Below are positions 10,148 to 17,459 of a DNA stretch of 51,374 nt, piece by piece. A program made the translations under genes and the position numbers. The DNA is taken from contig MVQI01000021.1 of assembly GCA_002067795.1 (NCBI GenBank), positions 1 through 51,374 of the forward strand. Reading direction: 5' to 3'. The stretch is from Methanosaeta sp. PtaB.Bin039. Lineage in GTDB: Archaea; Halobacteriota; Methanosarcinia; Methanotrichales; Methanotrichaceae. The notes beneath the pieces were generated by a model. It made no database searches. It worked only from the letters and a program-made list of their open reading frames with translations, and was not told the origin of the DNA. Each line of letters opens with the position of its first letter. Within the stretch, counting starts at the first letter, position 1.

Positions 10148-11347
10148 TCACTTTGGTTCGGCACTCTCCAGCAGGACCTCTCCTCGGCTATTGTTCTCGA
10201 ACTGGTTGCCTTCCAGGAGCACCCCCTGGCTGCCCGGGTCGATATTTATCCCGTAACCTCCATTTCCTCGCAAGACGTTATTGCGCACAATGTGGTGGGG
10301 GGCATTGTAGAAGCGAATTCCATCGTAGCGGCTCCAGACGATATCGTTGCTGGTCAGCGTGCAGTCTGTGGAGTTCAGCAGGCCGATCCCATCATCACCG
10401 CTTCTATTCACCATGTTGCCTTCTACAGCGATCTGGTGGCAGTCATTGAGATATATCCCGTACTCCTCGCTTCTATCCATATAATTTCCTGATGCTGTGC
10501 CGTTATCGCATCGGTCCAGGTTTATACCGTATTCGTTATCGTATAGACGATTTCCCTCAAGATTCCCGGCGGTCTCGTTCTCAAGGCTTATCCCCAGTTC
10601 ACATTCTGCTACCTGGTTTCCGCCTGCCAGGTTGTTCGTCCCACCCACCAGGCCAAGCCCTATCCTGCTGCCGTCAACGGAGTTGTTGATAAGCGCGCTT
10701 TCGGCAGACTCGTGCAGCATGACCCCGGCTCTCAGGTTCTCTGACAGGTTATTTGCCTCCACGGCGCAGGATGTGGCCGCCTCCAGCTCAATCCCGGCAG
10801 CACCGCAGCCCATGATGGTATTTCGAATCACCCTCACCATCGAGGCCTCTTCCAGGACGATCCCGCTTCCTCCGCTCTCCAGGACCTGGTTCTCCTGGAT
10901 GGTGCCGTCTGCTCCTCCCATCACATATATGCCAACATAATTCCCCTGTATCTGACAGCCCTGTATCAGGAACTGTGATGAGAGCACCTTGATAGCGGCA
11001 TCCCTGGCCATATCTCCACAGCCCTGGGCAGAGAAGTTCTGCACGGTCACCTGGGGAGAAGTTATGGTAACGGCAGATCCCTGGCCAGGCAGGATGAGGG
11101 TGGCAGATCCATTGACTGCAATCAGAGATAGGCATCTATCGATCACCACCGCTTCCTCGTACTCTCCTGCCTCCACTTCCACCCGGTCTCCCGGGCAGGC
11201 GGACTGCACCGCTTCCTGTATGCCGGCGAAGTCACAGCCATCTGGGCATACCGTCCAGGTATCTGCAAGTGCGGTGGAGGCGGGCGAAGAGAGCATCACC
11301 GCCGCCATCACTGCCAGACGCATCTGTATTTCAATCCCCTTAATCAT
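10148..11347 (-). CDS. Secreted right-handed beta-helix protein (NosD-like, PbH1 repeats), smaller paralog
   Basis: This 399-residue protein has a signal peptide (hydrophobic about residues 10-25, ending TALADTW) and then an entry region with paired Cys (CPDGCDF). After that come about a dozen parallel beta-helix repeats of the form (N/S)xxxxNxxxxxGxGIxLxxxxxxxIxxN, as in NosD/CASH-domain proteins. Such solenoids bind polysaccharides or build surface structures; the ligand is unknown. The ATG at 11347 has GGGAGGT upstream and overlaps the previous gene's end by eight bases, so translation is probably coupled. An upstream start would add 33 residues that do not look like a leader. It is the last gene of the four-gene beta-solenoid operon. 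Confidence 0.85.
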   Translation of the reverse strand: MIKGIEIQMRLAVMAAVMLSSPASTALADTWTVCPDGCDFAGIQEAVQSACPGDRVEVEAGEYEEAVVIDRCLSLIAVNGSATLILPGQGSAVTITSPQVTVQNFSAQGCGDMARDAAIKVLSSQFLIQGCQIQGNYVGIYVMGGADGTIQENQVLESGGSGIVLEEASMVRVIRNTIMGCGAAGIELEAATSCAVEANNLSENLRAGVMLHESAESALINNSVDGSRIGLGLVGGTNNLAGGNQVAECELGISLENETAGNLEGNRLYDNEYGINLDRCDNGTASGNYMDRSEEYGIYLNDCHQIAVEGNMVNRSGDDGIGLLNSTDCTLTSNDIVWSRYDGIRFYNAPHHIVRNNVLRGNGGYGINIDPGSQGVLLEGNQFENNSRGEVLLESAEPK

Positions 11348-13418
11348 ACAATACCTCCCAGCGGTAGTTCGGGAACGGCTGAATAAGAGGGCAGCTGTCT
11401 TCTTCTGCTCCCATGGTATGTGGGTGGTCGCAGACCCCATCGTCATTGCCGTCAGTTCGCCGATCGTCCTCCCAGAAGTTGCCCAGGCTGCCGTAGAAGA
11501 GGCGGCCGCGATAGGTATAATTCATCTCGGGGGTCGTCCAGACGTTGCTGGATATGAAGCTCTGGACGTGGTAGAGGTTGCCGGCAAATGTGTTCAATAC
11601 TATCCGGTTCCCGCTCGACTCAGCCGGGTATATCCCCTCGTCAAGGCAGAGCGCGTAGGTGTTTTCGGTTAGGTTGTTCATGGCGAGCAGATTCTCTGCT
11701 GAGAGGTCCAGGCGAATCGCATACATCGATCCGCCGACCTGGTTTTCAGTTACATTGTTTTGGGAGGACCTCTCAAGGCCGATTCCGGTGGAACTGGCGT
11801 GGGCATGGTTGGCGCGGATCCGGTTGCGGGCGGAATTGACAAGCGATATACCATTGTCCGAGACCTGCATGTGGCAGCCGGTAATATTGTTATGGCTGGC
11901 TCCATTTAGGACCAGCCCCGTCTTGCCCTGTTCTATCGTGCAGAAATAGACCCGGTTTTCATGAGACGATGCAAGGCCGATCCCCACTTCGCATTGCCGT
12001 ATGCTATTCGACGTCAGATTATTTCCGTCGGATTCGTTCAGGTATATAGCCTGTGTCGATCTGTTGACGGCATTTCCCATAAGCTGGTTACCGGAAGAGC
12101 GAAGCAGGTATGCTCCCTGTCTGGAGATCCTTTGTATCTGGTTTTCTCGGACGGCATTTAAGCTTGAGTTGTCCAGGACGAGCGCGTTTGGGCTATCTGC
12201 AACGCTATTTTGTGCAAGGAGGTTTCCTTTAGTCAGCGTGAGCCCTATCCCGCCTATGCCATTTCCCTCCAGCAGGTTGCCGGCGATGGTGTTATTGCTG
12301 CCGGCAAGTATGCTCATTCCCCATTCCGAGCTGAGGTCGATGCGATTGGATGATACGTTATTTTGATCGGACTCCTGAAGGGATATGCCGGTTCCGTCTA
12401 TAGTTTGTGATATCGCATTGCCAAGTAGGGTGTTTGCATGGGAGCTCTGCAGTTTGATCGCACCTTCTTGGTTTTGCCGGACGTCGTTTGCGGCCAGGAC
12501 GTTGGAGCGGCAGTAGTACAGGATCGCCCCGTATCCGTCGTTGGCTGCCAGAGTATTGTTTTCGATTGTGTTTTGATCCGACTCGTAGAGGTAAATGGCA
12601 TAATCGTTCCTGGTGCACAGGTTGTCCGACACGCGGTTATGCTCAGACCTGTATGGGTAAATCCCATAATCGTTGTTCGTTGCCAGGTTCTTGCTCACCA
12701 GGTTCTCAGCGGTATCTGAGAGCACAATCCCATAGTCGTTTGTATCAACCAGGTTGCCGATGATAGCGTTTCCTGACGCACCCGAGATCTTTATCCCTAT
12801 TCCCATGTTGAGGCTGGCATTATTGTCCTTCAGGGAGTTGTTGCTTGAATCTATCAGCAGAATGCCGGCATGGTTGTTCTCGTACACCTTGTTCTCGGAC
12901 AAGATGTTGCCGTCCGATCCCAGCAGGACCGCTCCTCCGAGGTCGTTTCTGCAGATGCCGTTTGAGGACAGCGTATTGTTGTAGCCGGTCATCAGAAGGC
13001 CCACACAGCTGCCTGAGAGCATGCAGCCCTCAATTGTATTGTTGTCGGATGATATCTTCAAGGCTGCCCTTGACCAATCCCTGGCGCCGGTGATTTCCAG
13101 GTTCTTGATCCAGATCCCATCTACGGATATTGATAGTCCGTCCTCCCCGATCGGAGCTATAATGACGGGACGTCCACGACCGCTGTCAACACCCTGCAAG
13201 ATGACCGTCTTGGTCAGGTTCACGCTCTCGTGGTACTGGCCGCTGCGAATTTCTATGATGTCGCCGATGCCAGCCGCTTCCACAGCAGCGCATATCCTCG
13301 AAAAGTCGCCTCCATCTCCAACCGACCAGGTGGCTGATTGAGCGCAGCACTCAAGCATCAGGCACGCCACCAAAAACGAGACGCCCGTCAGGGCCCGATC
13401 TCGATCTGTATCATCCAA
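11340..13418 (-). CDS. Secreted right-handed beta-helix protein (NosD-like, PbH1 repeats), larger paralog
   Basis: This 692-residue protein has a signal peptide (about residues 9-28, ending CCAQSATW). About 25 PbH1-type beta-helix turns, rich in Asn ladders (NNTIEGC, NNTLSSN, NRVSDN and so on), fill most of the chain. The C-terminus has the NosD-type cap GNFWEDD...TDGNDDGVCDHPH...CPLIQPFP. It is probably attached to or outside the cell surface. The start is a TTG with GGTGATGTGAT just upstream; the preceding pentapeptide-repeat gene stops at 13424, five bases before it. It overlaps the next beta-helix gene by eight bases. Confidence 0.85.
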   Translation of the reverse strand: MDDTDRDRALTGVSFLVACLMLECCAQSATWSVGDGGDFSRICAAVEAAGIGDIIEIRSGQYHESVNLTKTVILQGVDSGRGRPVIIAPIGEDGLSISVDGIWIKNLEITGARDWSRAALKISSDNNTIEGCMLSGSCVGLLMTGYNNTLSSNGICRNDLGGAVLLGSDGNILSENKVYENNHAGILLIDSSNNSLKDNNASLNMGIGIKISGASGNAIIGNLVDTNDYGIVLSDTAENLVSKNLATNNDYGIYPYRSEHNRVSDNLCTRNDYAIYLYESDQNTIENNTLAANDGYGAILYYCRSNVLAANDVRQNQEGAIKLQSSHANTLLGNAISQTIDGTGISLQESDQNNVSSNRIDLSSEWGMSILAGSNNTIAGNLLEGNGIGGIGLTLTKGNLLAQNSVADSPNALVLDNSSLNAVRENQIQRISRQGAYLLRSSGNQLMGNAVNRSTQAIYLNESDGNNLTSNSIRQCEVGIGLASSHENRVYFCTIEQGKTGLVLNGASHNNITGCHMQVSDNGISLVNSARNRIRANHAHASSTGIGLERSSQNNVTENQVGGSMYAIRLDLSAENLLAMNNLTENTYALCLDEGIYPAESSGNRIVLNTFAGNLYHVQSFISSNVWTTPEMNYTYRGRLFYGSLGNFWEDDRRTDGNDDGVCDHPHTMGAEEDSCPLIQPFPNYRWEVLYD

Positions 13419-13423
13419 TCACA

Positions 13424-14599
13424 TCACCTTTTCAGGTCCTGCAGATCCTGCTGGAGATCGCTGCTAAATCTTGCTCCGTCAAGTATGGACACAGAGATGC
13501 TGTGCAGCGTAAAATCATCGTAGACGATCCTCTCCAGGTTCGCTCCGCTGAGGTCCACCCCCCGCATCATGACCATTGTCAGGTCGGCCTCTCGCAGATC
13601 AGCGCCTTTGAGGCTGACGTTATCCAGCAGTACCAGCTCCATCCTGGAATTCTTGAGGATTGCAGAGGTCAGGTCCACCTCCCGCAGAAGGGCCGGACCC
13701 TGGATGACCATCCTGGGCATTATGGCGCCGCTCAGGTTGCAGCCGACCAGGTTTGCGTATTGCAGCCTGGCTCCTGACAGGTCCGCTTCCCTGGCAGTCA
13801 CGCGGTTGAATACGGCGTAAGGCAGCTTTGCCCCAACCAGGCTGCATCCGGAGAGGTCGGCCTCAGTCAGATCCGCATAGGAAAGGTCAGCCCCATCAAG
13901 GCTGGCATTCTGAAGGTCTGCCCTCATGAGAAAGGCCCGGGTGAAATCCGCCTCTTCCAGGTCCGCTTCCCGCATGACGGTCATATACAGCTCAGCCCTG
14001 GTAAAACGGCTGGACCGCAGATATGCTTGGCTCAGGTTGGCGAAGGCCATGTGGGCGCCCAGGAAGTTTCCCCGGGGGAGAAATATGCGGCTCAAATCAG
14101 CTCCGTACAGCTCTGCACCATAGAGCCGAGAATCGGACAGGTCGGCTTGGGTGAGCACCGCATCGGTGAGGACTGCGCAGGTGAAGTCCGCCTCCCTGGC
14201 CCGGGCATTGGTCAGGTTGGCCTTCTCCAGTACTGTCCGGGTCAGGCGGGCTTTGTCCAGATCCGATCCGGATATGTCTGATCCGGTCAGATATGCCGAA
14301 GTCATATCCGCTCCGGTCAGATTCGAACCGGTCAGGACGGCTTCGGTCAGCCAGGCAGATCGCAGATACGAATAGCTGAGATCGATCCCTGCCAGGTCCA
14401 GGCCTGAGAGTTTTGACTGGTTCAGATGAGCACCAGATGCATCTATTCCAGCCAGATCCGCTCCCCACAGGTCGGATCGGTCCTTTAGATCCGCTGCCAT
14501 TGCCGGATTCAGGACAACCGCCACCACCAGAACCAGCTGATACAACAGCCGAGGCTCGATCTCAATCCCGCGTTCGCTCACCGTTTTTTCTCTCATCAT
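13424..14599 (-). CDS. Secreted pentapeptide-repeat protein
   Basis: This protein of about 391 residues has an N-terminal hydrophobic segment (about residues 18-35, ending NPAMAADL), probably a signal peptide. It is then built of A(D/N)LXX pentapeptide repeats almost to the end, which form a right-handed quadrilateral beta-helix. It closes with a segment, RIVYDDFTL...LDGARFSSDL, that is clearly shared with the C-terminus of the neighbouring pentapeptide protein. The double ATG at 14594-14599 is preceded by TGATGAGC. A GTG-type upstream start would overlap the neighbour and adds no signal. It is the second gene of the beta-solenoid operon. Confidence 0.85.
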   Translation of the reverse strand: MMREKTVSERGIEIEPRLLYQLVLVVAVVLNPAMAADLKDRSDLWGADLAGIDASGAHLNQSKLSGLDLAGIDLSYSYLRSAWLTEAVLTGSNLTGADMTSAYLTGSDISGSDLDKARLTRTVLEKANLTNARAREADFTCAVLTDAVLTQADLSDSRLYGAELYGADLSRIFLPRGNFLGAHMAFANLSQAYLRSSRFTRAELYMTVMREADLEEADFTRAFLMRADLQNASLDGADLSYADLTEADLSGCSLVGAKLPYAVFNRVTAREADLSGARLQYANLVGCNLSGAIMPRMVIQGPALLREVDLTSAILKNSRMELVLLDNVSLKGADLREADLTMVMMRGVDLSGANLERIVYDDFTLHSISVSILDGARFSSDLQQDLQDLKR

Positions 14600-14612
14600 G
14601 AGCTCATCAATG

Positions 14613-16475
14613 TCAGATGCTCTGAAGCGCACTTCGCAGCCCCGCACTCATCGTGGCCCCTTGAAGCTGGCAGGACTTCAGTGCGGCCAGGGTGGAGTTG
14701 TCGTAGACGATCCTTGTCAGATCAGACCAGGAGAGGTCAACGTTCATCAGGAATGCCACCTGGAGCTGCGCCCCCTCAAAGCTGGCCCTGGAGAAATTGC
14801 AGTTCTCGACGGCAAACCTGCTGATCTTTGCACTCTTAAAGCTGGCCTCCTGCGCCTCCACATCCTGCAGATAGACCCCCTTTATGGTCGCGCCATCAAA
14901 AATGGCCCTCATCATATTATTTCCGACGGATTTGGTCGAATCCAGATACGCTCCGGTGAGATCTGCCATGCTCAGATCGGCCTGCGAGAGATCGGTTCTT
15001 ACCAGACGTGAGCCTTTGAGGTTGGCAAATGAGAGATCGGCATTGGTGAGATCGGCATAGGATAGGTCAGCTTCATTCAGCCCGGCACCGGTGAGGTTGC
15101 ACCTGATCATGTACGACTTGGTGAAATCCGATCTTGACAGGTCAGCTCCTGCCAGCTGGCAGGAATAGAGTTCAGCCCTGGAGAACTGGCTGCGTGAGAG
15201 GCGAGCCCCTTCCAGGTTCGCCCAGTTGAGGGTTGAGGCCAGCATGTTGGCCTTAAATAGACGTACCCTGGGCATTTGAGCTCCGGATAGGTCGGCTCTG
15301 TAAAGCCGGGCTCCTGTGAGGTCGGCATCGGAGAGCTGAGCATCTCTGAGGCCTGCATAACTGAGGTCGGCCCCTGTCAGGTCGGCTCCTGAGAGATCAG
15401 CTTCATTGAGCAGAGCATAGGATAGCCTTGTCTGTGACAGATCTGCTCCGGTGAGGTTGATCCTGGTCAGGTTTGCGAAAAACAGATCTGCGCCATGCAG
15501 AATCGCTCCATCCATTCTGCTCTCCATGGCCCTGGCCTCCGAGAGCACGACACCGGAGATGGCTGCACCACGGAGGTCAGCCCCCATGATATTGGCGGCG
15601 GTAAGGTTTGAATTCTCAAGCGATGCTCCCCTGAGGCTACAGCCTCGCAGCAGGGCACGGTGCAGTGAGCATTCCGAAAGGTCGGCTCCTTCGAGAAGGG
15701 CACTTTCCAGGTTGGCTCCGTCCAGGTTGGCTCCGCTCAGCGTCGCCTCGCGGATGTCGGCTCCGGTTATGGTTGTCTCCCGCAGATCAGCCCCCAGAAA
15801 ATCGGCAGACGTCAGATTGCTCTTATGCAGATTGGAGTAGGAGAAATCTGCATCTCTAGCATCAAGATCTCGAAGAGACGCACCTTGGAGGCGGCATGCT
15901 GTCAGATTTGATCCTGTCAGATTGGAGCCGGTCAGGTTGGCTCCGATCAGGCCTGCTCGATCGAGATCCGCACCGCTGAAGTCCGAGCCGCAGAGGCTGG
16001 CGCCGTTTAGCCTTGCGCCTCGCATATCCGCCCCAGCTCCCTCGACCATATTGAGCTTGGCATCCTCGGCTATGATCTGGCATGCACTGGCGTAAGATAG
16101 GTTTGCTCCGGTCAGGTCAGCACTGCATAGGTTTGCGCCGCTCAGATCTGCCCCGCACAGGTTTGCATTTCTGAGGTTGGCTCCTTTCAGCCATGCGGAT
16201 CTGAGATGAGCTCCTCTGAGGTCAATCCCCGTGAGATTCGCTCCGGAAAGGTCTGATTGGTTTAGATGTGCTCCCATCAGGCTCTGTCCTGAGAGGTTAA
16301 ATCCTGTCAGGTCCAGCCGGTCGGCCGGCAGGACCGCATGATTCGCGGCGCAGCCAGCCAATGTCAGGGCGATGCACACAATCATGCTCCAGAAGAGAGG
16401 TCTCCTCCGGTCTCTGAGCAGCTCGTAGTTGGGCGATCTGGTTGGCTCTTCACTTGAATCAGCGGATCTGCTCAT
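14613..16475 (-). CDS. Pentapeptide-repeat lipoprotein
   Basis: This 620-residue protein opens with a long charged n-region (RDRRR), a hydrophobic stretch and the lipobox LTLAGC (Cys42), predicting a membrane-anchored lipoprotein facing outward. From about residue 55 to 580 it is pentapeptide repeats (for example SGANLTGIDL, LTGADLSYAG), about 100 of them, one of the longer arrays for the family. The C-terminal end RIVYDNSTL...LQGATMSAGL resembles that of the next protein. GTGTGATGAATAG lies upstream of the ATG. It is the first gene of the four-gene operon; its role is unknown, with surface scaffold or ligand-binding rod as inference. Confidence 0.87.
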   Translation of the reverse strand: MSRSADSSEEPTRSPNYELLRDRRRPLFWSMIVCIALTLAGCAANHAVLPADRLDLTGFNLSGQSLMGAHLNQSDLSGANLTGIDLRGAHLRSAWLKGANLRNANLCGADLSGANLCSADLTGANLSYASACQIIAEDAKLNMVEGAGADMRGARLNGASLCGSDFSGADLDRAGLIGANLTGSNLTGSNLTACRLQGASLRDLDARDADFSYSNLHKSNLTSADFLGADLRETTITGADIREATLSGANLDGANLESALLEGADLSECSLHRALLRGCSLRGASLENSNLTAANIMGADLRGAAISGVVLSEARAMESRMDGAILHGADLFFANLTRINLTGADLSQTRLSYALLNEADLSGADLTGADLSYAGLRDAQLSDADLTGARLYRADLSGAQMPRVRLFKANMLASTLNWANLEGARLSRSQFSRAELYSCQLAGADLSRSDFTKSYMIRCNLTGAGLNEADLSYADLTNADLSFANLKGSRLVRTDLSQADLSMADLTGAYLDSTKSVGNNMMRAIFDGATIKGVYLQDVEAQEASFKSAKISRFAVENCNFSRASFEGAQLQVAFLMNVDLSWSDLTRIVYDNSTLAALKSCQLQGATMSAGLRSALQSI

Positions 16476-16793: not shown

Positions 16794-17459
16794 TCAGATC
16801 AATCTCCATTCTGGGTTTACCGAATCAAGATATTTAAAATCTGTGAAACTGTAAGGCGCCTTGTAGTATCCCTCCTCTTCCACGATGCCGTAGTAGCTAT
16901 CCACTGCCAACCAGGTGTTCGGGACGGATGGATCTTCCACAACGACCCACAGATGTCCCTGGTTTTGGTATTGAGCCGGATCGAACAGGTAGGTCACATT
17001 GTATCCAAAGCTCCGGTATATCTCATCCAGCTTCTGCGATCCGTCATAGCACATCCCCAGGGGAGTCACCGGAAAGATGACGTATCTGCTGGCCGTATTG
17101 ATGAACTCCTTATCTTTGGTCCTGCTGTATGTCCTGTTCAGCTGGATCGCATTTGAGGGGAGCACCTTGGTGGGGCCCGCGTCTTTTTCGGGCGGGTCCA
17201 TCCAAAAATCTGCCAGCCTGGCAGCTCCTCCGTTCGGGGTGAGGTAGACTTCCTTTTGTGACTGGAACCTCACGGTCACGTAATCGCGACTTGGCGTGGC
17301 GTCGTATCCGTGAGTAGCCAGGAAGAACGCCAGGTCGTCGACTGTGATGCCTATATCCTCATAGCTTGATAGCAGCAACCACAGGTCGTTCTCCTCACCC
17401 CCGTCGGAGACCGGAAGGAACAATAAAAATATCAGGACCAAGATCGCGGCCGCTTTCAT
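16794..17459 (-). CDS. Secreted transglutaminase-like cysteine protease-fold protein
   Basis: This 221-residue protein has a signal peptide (MKAAAILVLIFLLFLP). The second half has the order expected of a transglutaminase-like catalytic triad: GMCYDGS (C137), QGHLWVVVE (H169) and LAVDSYYG (D187). Proteins of this superfamily act as peptidases, amidases or cross-linking enzymes; the activity here is inferred from the motif order only. The ATG at 17459 has GAGGATAC upstream and removes a 23-residue non-signal extension. It is on the same strand as, and upstream of, the beta-solenoid operon, so it may process or cross-link surface proteins. A 335-base gap to the operon makes co-transcription uncertain. 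Confidence 0.6.
   Translation of the reverse strand: MKAAAILVLIFLLFLPVSDGGEENDLWLLLSSYEDIGITVDDLAFFLATHGYDATPSRDYVTVRFQSQKEVYLTPNGGAARLADFWMDPPEKDAGPTKVLPSNAIQLNRTYSRTKDKEFINTASRYVIFPVTPLGMCYDGSQKLDEIYRSFGYNVTYLFDPAQYQNQGHLWVVVEDPSVPNTWLAVDSYYGIVEEEGYYKAPYSFTDFKYLDSVNPEWRLI

Follow-up and report, generated by a model that had tools for sequence, protein, structure and literature searches.

What brings exported proteins of two unrelated beta-solenoid types together in one locus of a filamentous methanogen, and does the locus encode a functional unit? The question is raised by a contig of Methanosaeta sp. PtaB.Bin039 (Methanotrichaceae; GCA_002067795.1, MVQI01000021.1), analyzed here over its stretch of 51,374 nucleotides, hereinafter the window. 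Species of Methanothrix rank among the major methanogens that use acetate, and they form filaments enclosed in a sheath. The initial annotation described an operon of four minus-strand genes, two encoding pentapeptide-repeat proteins and two encoding PbH1 proteins, and interpreted it as consisting only of exported solenoids. Our gene calls reproduce the coordinates of all four genes as well as their spacing, with gaps of 13 bases between A and B and 5 bases between B and C, and an overlap of 8 bases between C and D. The notion of a solenoid-only operon turned out to be wrong: T, a further gene located 5' of these four on the same strand, belongs to the unit even though its product is not a solenoid.

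A gene unit led by a non-solenoid protein

The five genes, in the order of transcription, are the following.

Gene T, 16794..17459, minus strand: 221 aa from the ATG at 17459; first gene of the unit; predicted exported transglutaminase/papain-like protein
Gene A, 14613..16475, minus strand: 620 aa; predicted exported pentapeptide-repeat protein (PF00805, 353 bits)
Gene B, 13424..14599, minus strand: 391 aa, ATG start; predicted exported pentapeptide-repeat protein (PF00805, 225 bits)
Gene C, 11340..13418, minus strand: 692 aa, TTG start; predicted exported PbH1 right-handed beta-helix protein (PF05048/PF13229)
Gene D, 10148..11347, minus strand: 399 aa; predicted exported PbH1 protein (PF13229, 155 bits)

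The ATG was taken as the start of B; an alternative upstream GTG present in the list of open reading frames would make B overlap A. In the window, T and A are separated by 318 bp, compared with small gaps in most relatives. A simple scan of the T-A gap for terminator-like sites on the minus strand detected none, and searching upstream of the individual genes for archaeal TATA boxes gave no useful information. A and B are the sole pentapeptide-repeat genes in the 2.45-Mb genome, and they adjoin two (C and D) of its approximately one dozen PbH1 loci; thus, the clustering of A, B, C, and D exceeds chance. We delimit the gene unit as T-A-B-C(-D). In about 13 to 15 loci (L062-L143), the unit is flanked by members of two clusters encoded on the opposite strand, a divergent AAA+ ATPase gene and a gene for an ACT-like domain protein, and the recurrence of these flanking genes points to a shared chromosomal location of the unit.

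Export signals and family assignment of the solenoid proteins

At the N terminus of each of the A, B, C, and D proteins is a hydrophobic, signal-like stretch (KD15 1.6-2.4). Later segments above a KD15 of 1.6 are lacking in A, B, and C, and D contains a single borderline one (1.9, just past residue 60). An export-like N terminus is also present in T, and a hydrophobic leader is found in 40 of the 42 B proteins. Judging by these leaders, T and the A to D proteins would be located at the cell surface. The initial description of A to D as exported beta-solenoids agrees with the signal-like leaders, but the designation of A as a lipoprotein is weak, being tied to a single LAGC box that is missing from most A relatives.

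A and B are members of the PF00805 family, with 353 bits over 15 stretches and 225 bits over 11 stretches, respectively (cut-off 20.2), and are predicted to be long square beta-solenoids. The PbH1 assignment holds for C and D, which match PF13229 with 212 and 155 bits, respectively (cut-off 25.9); C also matches PF05048. Both are therefore akin to NosD/PbH1 proteins (PF05048, PF13229, TIGR04247) in being PbH1 right-handed beta-helices, but unlike NosD itself, they remain below the TIGR04247 subfamily cut-off of 300, at 156.9 bits for C and 155.6 bits for D. Their assignment as NosD copper maturation proteins was rejected on these scores, and no nosZ, nosF, or nosY neighbors were found among the flanking genes scanned.

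A passes the cut-off of the HetL equivalog NF047416 (311 bits vs 260) and also exceeds that of the NCBIfam "Alr5209" equivalog, so that automatic annotation may name it a heterocyst protein. We judged the NF047416 match to be an artifact of length and repeats in a protein that is archaeal and, by prediction, exported, and a HetL or Qnr identity of A and B was likewise rejected as a repeat artifact. In contrast to PF00805 proteins of the MfpA/Qnr/HetL type, A and B carry export signals, are paired with T, and possess conserved non-repeat motifs; the gyrase-mimic roles of Qnr and MfpA do not fit proteins that are predicted to be exported. A role in anti-phage defense was rejected as well, PADLOC having matched none of the five proteins. 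The non-repeat motifs retained in B (NQS, SAWL, FSRAELY, ADFTRAY, and YDQFTLYSL) could be contact or modification sites, and the Gln of NQS, which is invariant, can be viewed, speculatively, as a candidate acceptor.

Conservation of the solenoid genes in Methanotrichaceae

BLAST searches with B in 80 relatives showed that most genomes of the family contain full-length homologs (41-49% identity), and regions of 10-20 kb were fetched and annotated around about 40 of the loci. Among these, the order T-A-B-C recurs, and an A-like gene sits between T and B in nine loci. A same-strand PbH1 gene lies directly 3' of B in 17 loci from at least four genera, which are drawn from few lineages and hence do not represent 17 independent events; in one genus (g6), the PbH1 gene downstream of B belongs to a different PbH1 subfamily. 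The orthologs of C form a family present in about 20 genomes, with 35-39% identity and scores of 350-450 bits, compared with about 115 bits for other PbH1 proteins. For D, no ortholog was found in 50 family genomes, the best relative scoring 103 bits. Given the recurring gene order and the orthology of C, as opposed to the lack of D orthologs, A, B, and C appear to constitute a conserved set, whereas D appears to be a local, lineage-specific addition. The proposed genetic linkage of two unrelated exported solenoid types in this filamentous methanogen is thus upheld by conserved neighboring genes; the expectation of joint conservation in relatives is borne out for A, B, and C, but not for D.

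The composition of the locus varies. Two loci contain T and C without A or B. Exported proteins of about 200-240 aa that belong to one family (f3) are encoded after C or B in nine loci (L066:12196-13611 and L061, L068, L069, L072, L073, L118, L142, and L143) and are possibly further members of the unit; the two L066 copies had no NCBIfam match. In another locus (L065:9918-12779), a 953-aa protein that combines a periplasmic-binding-protein-like N terminus with an A-type pentapeptide solenoid is encoded directly 3' of T-B.

T is very probably a divergent papain/transglutaminase-like protein

The window's T has no family match in Pfam at an E value of 1 or in NCBIfam at an E value of 0.1, and comparison of the T profile with PDB sequences gave no meaningful match. 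Two domains and three putative catalytic residues are distinguished in this protein.

T N-terminal domain, 17193..17399, minus strand: also occurs by itself, as an exported protein of about 100 aa
T C-terminal catalytic-like domain, 16797..17186, minus strand: AlphaFold2 pLDDT 88.9, pTM 0.83
Putative catalytic Cys (PLGMCYDGS), 17049..17051, minus strand: invariant in 31 main-clade sequences; aligned with the transglutaminase (TG) Cys
Putative catalytic His (GHLWVVVED), 16953..16955, minus strand: invariant in 31 main-clade sequences; aligned with the TG His
Putative catalytic Asp (LAVDSYYG), 16899..16901, minus strand: invariant in 31 main-clade sequences; aligned with the TG Asp

Using hhalign, the C-terminal domain was aligned with a TG-core profile based on 29 PF01841 loci in related genomes, with a score of 28.7 (P 2.4e-4, 55 columns, probability 44%); the Cys, His, and Asp of T are in register with the TG core and have the same order and spacing. 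In the controls, the highest score was 19.7 for 150 column shuffles of T and 24.1 for 52 other families. An earlier, shallow TG profile, derived from one paralog group, had yielded a P value of only 0.004. The AlphaFold2 model of full-length T was poor (pLDDT 58) and its fold matches were meaningless; that of the C-terminal domain alone was confident. In the latter model, the Cys occupies the N-terminal end of a helix, and successive strands carry the His and the Asp, an arrangement (with a His-x-Trp motif) that resembles PF01841 Transglut_core/papain-like enzymes; unlike these enzymes, T includes a new N-terminal domain and represents a Methanotrichaceae-only family. Most of the PDB neighbors that Foldseek gave for the domain are papain-like or TG-like cysteine enzymes, including the catalytic domains of SseI and GtgE, vasohibin, the protease domains of the MOA and PSL lectins, USPs, PLpro, C39 peptidases, and an amide synthase, with a best E value of 0.08 and no individually significant match; a fold search against viral proteins found nothing significant. 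Judging from the profile alignment and the model, T very probably belongs to the papain/transglutaminase-like superfamily as a divergent member, its exact branch being uncertain given the best Foldseek E value and the hhalign probability.

In three divergent T paralogs (L184:2615-3289, L185:2425-3105, and L187:2482-3162), the putative catalytic Cys is replaced by Arg, and the His is also lost in L185 and L187. Such paralogs without catalytic residues make a binding role possible. In at least 31 of 87 cases, the gene for the stand-alone form of the N-terminal domain is no more than 3 kb away from a pentapeptide gene, compared with an expectation of less than 1% of the genome sequence. Two further matches to this domain, away from any pentapeptide gene, are found on contig C22 of the window's genome, where L198:4253-4711 encodes a stand-alone exported protein with the domain.

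Coupling of T to pentapeptide-repeat genes

In all 28 relative loci that carry both genes, T precedes B on the same strand, either directly (19 loci) or with A in between (9 loci), and by this comparison T is the most conserved partner of B. The identity of T across the main clade is 55-67%, and its conservation is above that of B or C. T was identified in 42 of the 50 Methanotrichaceae genomes, a few of which contain the N-terminal domain or fragments only, and was not found outside this family in a sample of 394 genomes from the phylum. The named T records come from Methanothrix, Methanosaeta, and Methanotrichaceae, along with some uncultured or unclassified archaea and one entry with a bacterial label; the latter, L258 (DCTU01000162.1, "bacterium UBP9_UBA1432"), bears a Methanothrix T gene and is probably a mis-binned contig.

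Among the family genomes, 35 have both T and B, 2 have B only, 2 have T only, and 10 have neither (Fisher p 5e-7, an optimistic value because the genomes are related). Pentapeptide-repeat genes are entirely lacking in seven genomes of the family that have no intact T and also in G004, whose sole T lacks both the Cys and the His. One of the seven, G007, retains a broken T remnant (L199:2711-3612). Departures from the pattern are G034 and G037, which have short or marginal pentapeptide matches yet no T, and G030, where an intact T has no neighboring pentapeptide gene and a single gene with few repeats is present. Overall, the identity of the components and the coupling between T and pentapeptide-repeat genes are well supported.

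Proposed function and alternative explanations

The best overall reading, which we consider about evenly poised between right and wrong, is that T acts on the exported pentapeptide solenoids at the cell surface, with a PbH1 protein as a partner. As a putative cysteine enzyme, T would work outside the membrane on A and B, most likely making isopeptide cross-links in these solenoids or cutting them during maturation; we infer either cross-linking or cleavage as its reaction. In this way, A and B would come to form a stable fiber- or rod-like component of the envelope, with the PbH1 protein supplying a glycan- or protein-binding face or serving as a structural partner. A more specific version, in which the TG-like enzyme covalently builds a fiber or plug from pentapeptide and PbH1 solenoids as part of the filamentous Methanothrix envelope, septal plugs, or matrix, is rather unlikely.

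Each component can be placed in a known family or fold, but the system as a whole matches none known to us, and, in keeping with the initial annotation, which knew of no described system of such composition, we found no paper combining these components in the open-licence literature. A family-specific, widespread unit, predicted to be exported and including an enzyme-like protein, provides named candidate genes for envelope or plug assembly. If correct, the proposed mechanism would be the first link found between a TG-like enzyme and exported pentapeptide solenoids, and a possible route to covalently stabilized protein rods.

Alternatively, T might be a non-enzymatic binder or chaperone with a TG fold that holds or delivers exported pentapeptide solenoids, themselves functioning as surface binders. 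TG-like folds can lose catalysis, and the persistence of Cys-less and His-less paralogs and the location of the N-terminal domain alone next to pentapeptide genes are compatible with such a role; what makes it doubtful is that none of the 31 main-clade copies departs from the Cys, His, and Asp, and that G004, whose sole T is without both Cys and His, lacks any pentapeptide gene. T could also trim or release surface proteins as a peptidase or amidase; the solenoids would then be adhesins or glycan binders of the extracellular matrix instead of a cross-linked structure. Papain-like peptidases account for most of the fold neighbors of T, and activity on carbohydrates, or binding of them, is common among PbH1 proteins, but a peptidase or amidase role by itself leaves the specific tie to pentapeptide proteins unexplained, and no conserved cleavage site was identified. 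We regard this explanation as unlikely. It is highly improbable that the neighborhood is a chance assortment of ordinary exported repeat proteins devoid of joint function: PbH1 genes are indeed numerous in these genomes and D is unique to the window's lineage, but chance does not account for the constant order and strand of T and B (28/28), the co-loss of T and pentapeptide genes, and the orthology of C.

A sheath or plug role of the unit can be envisaged, and the initial annotation had suggested a link to the sheath or matrix. The unit shares predicted export and the same filamentous organisms with the archaeal sheath (SH/MspA) proteins; the SH proteins, however, form amyloid-like rings and were found in all Methanotrichales in a 2024 survey (PMC11576556), whereas the unit consists of other folds and is not universal. 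According to the survey, the plug and assembly proteins are unknown, and no additional protein could be linked to the making of the sheath or the plugs (PMC11576556). The restriction of the unit to Methanotrichaceae, which are sheath-growing organisms, would be consistent with a dedicated module for assembling the sheath or septal plugs, but such a module appears quite unlikely: several genomes of the family contain neither T nor B, which hence do not occur wherever SH proteins are reported (PMC11576556), T was detected in no genome outside the family in the phylum sample, and no sheath gene was found beside the unit. The sheath link is therefore not supported, and since some family genomes lack the unit, the sheath probably does not depend on it; the unit may still have an accessory function or one in the plugs. 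In G016, which we take to be M. thermoacetophila PT, sheath protein genes were not found at 640-820 kb, near the position expected from locus tags. The region scanned in this genome includes a CRISPR-like repeat array (L304:11031-17757).
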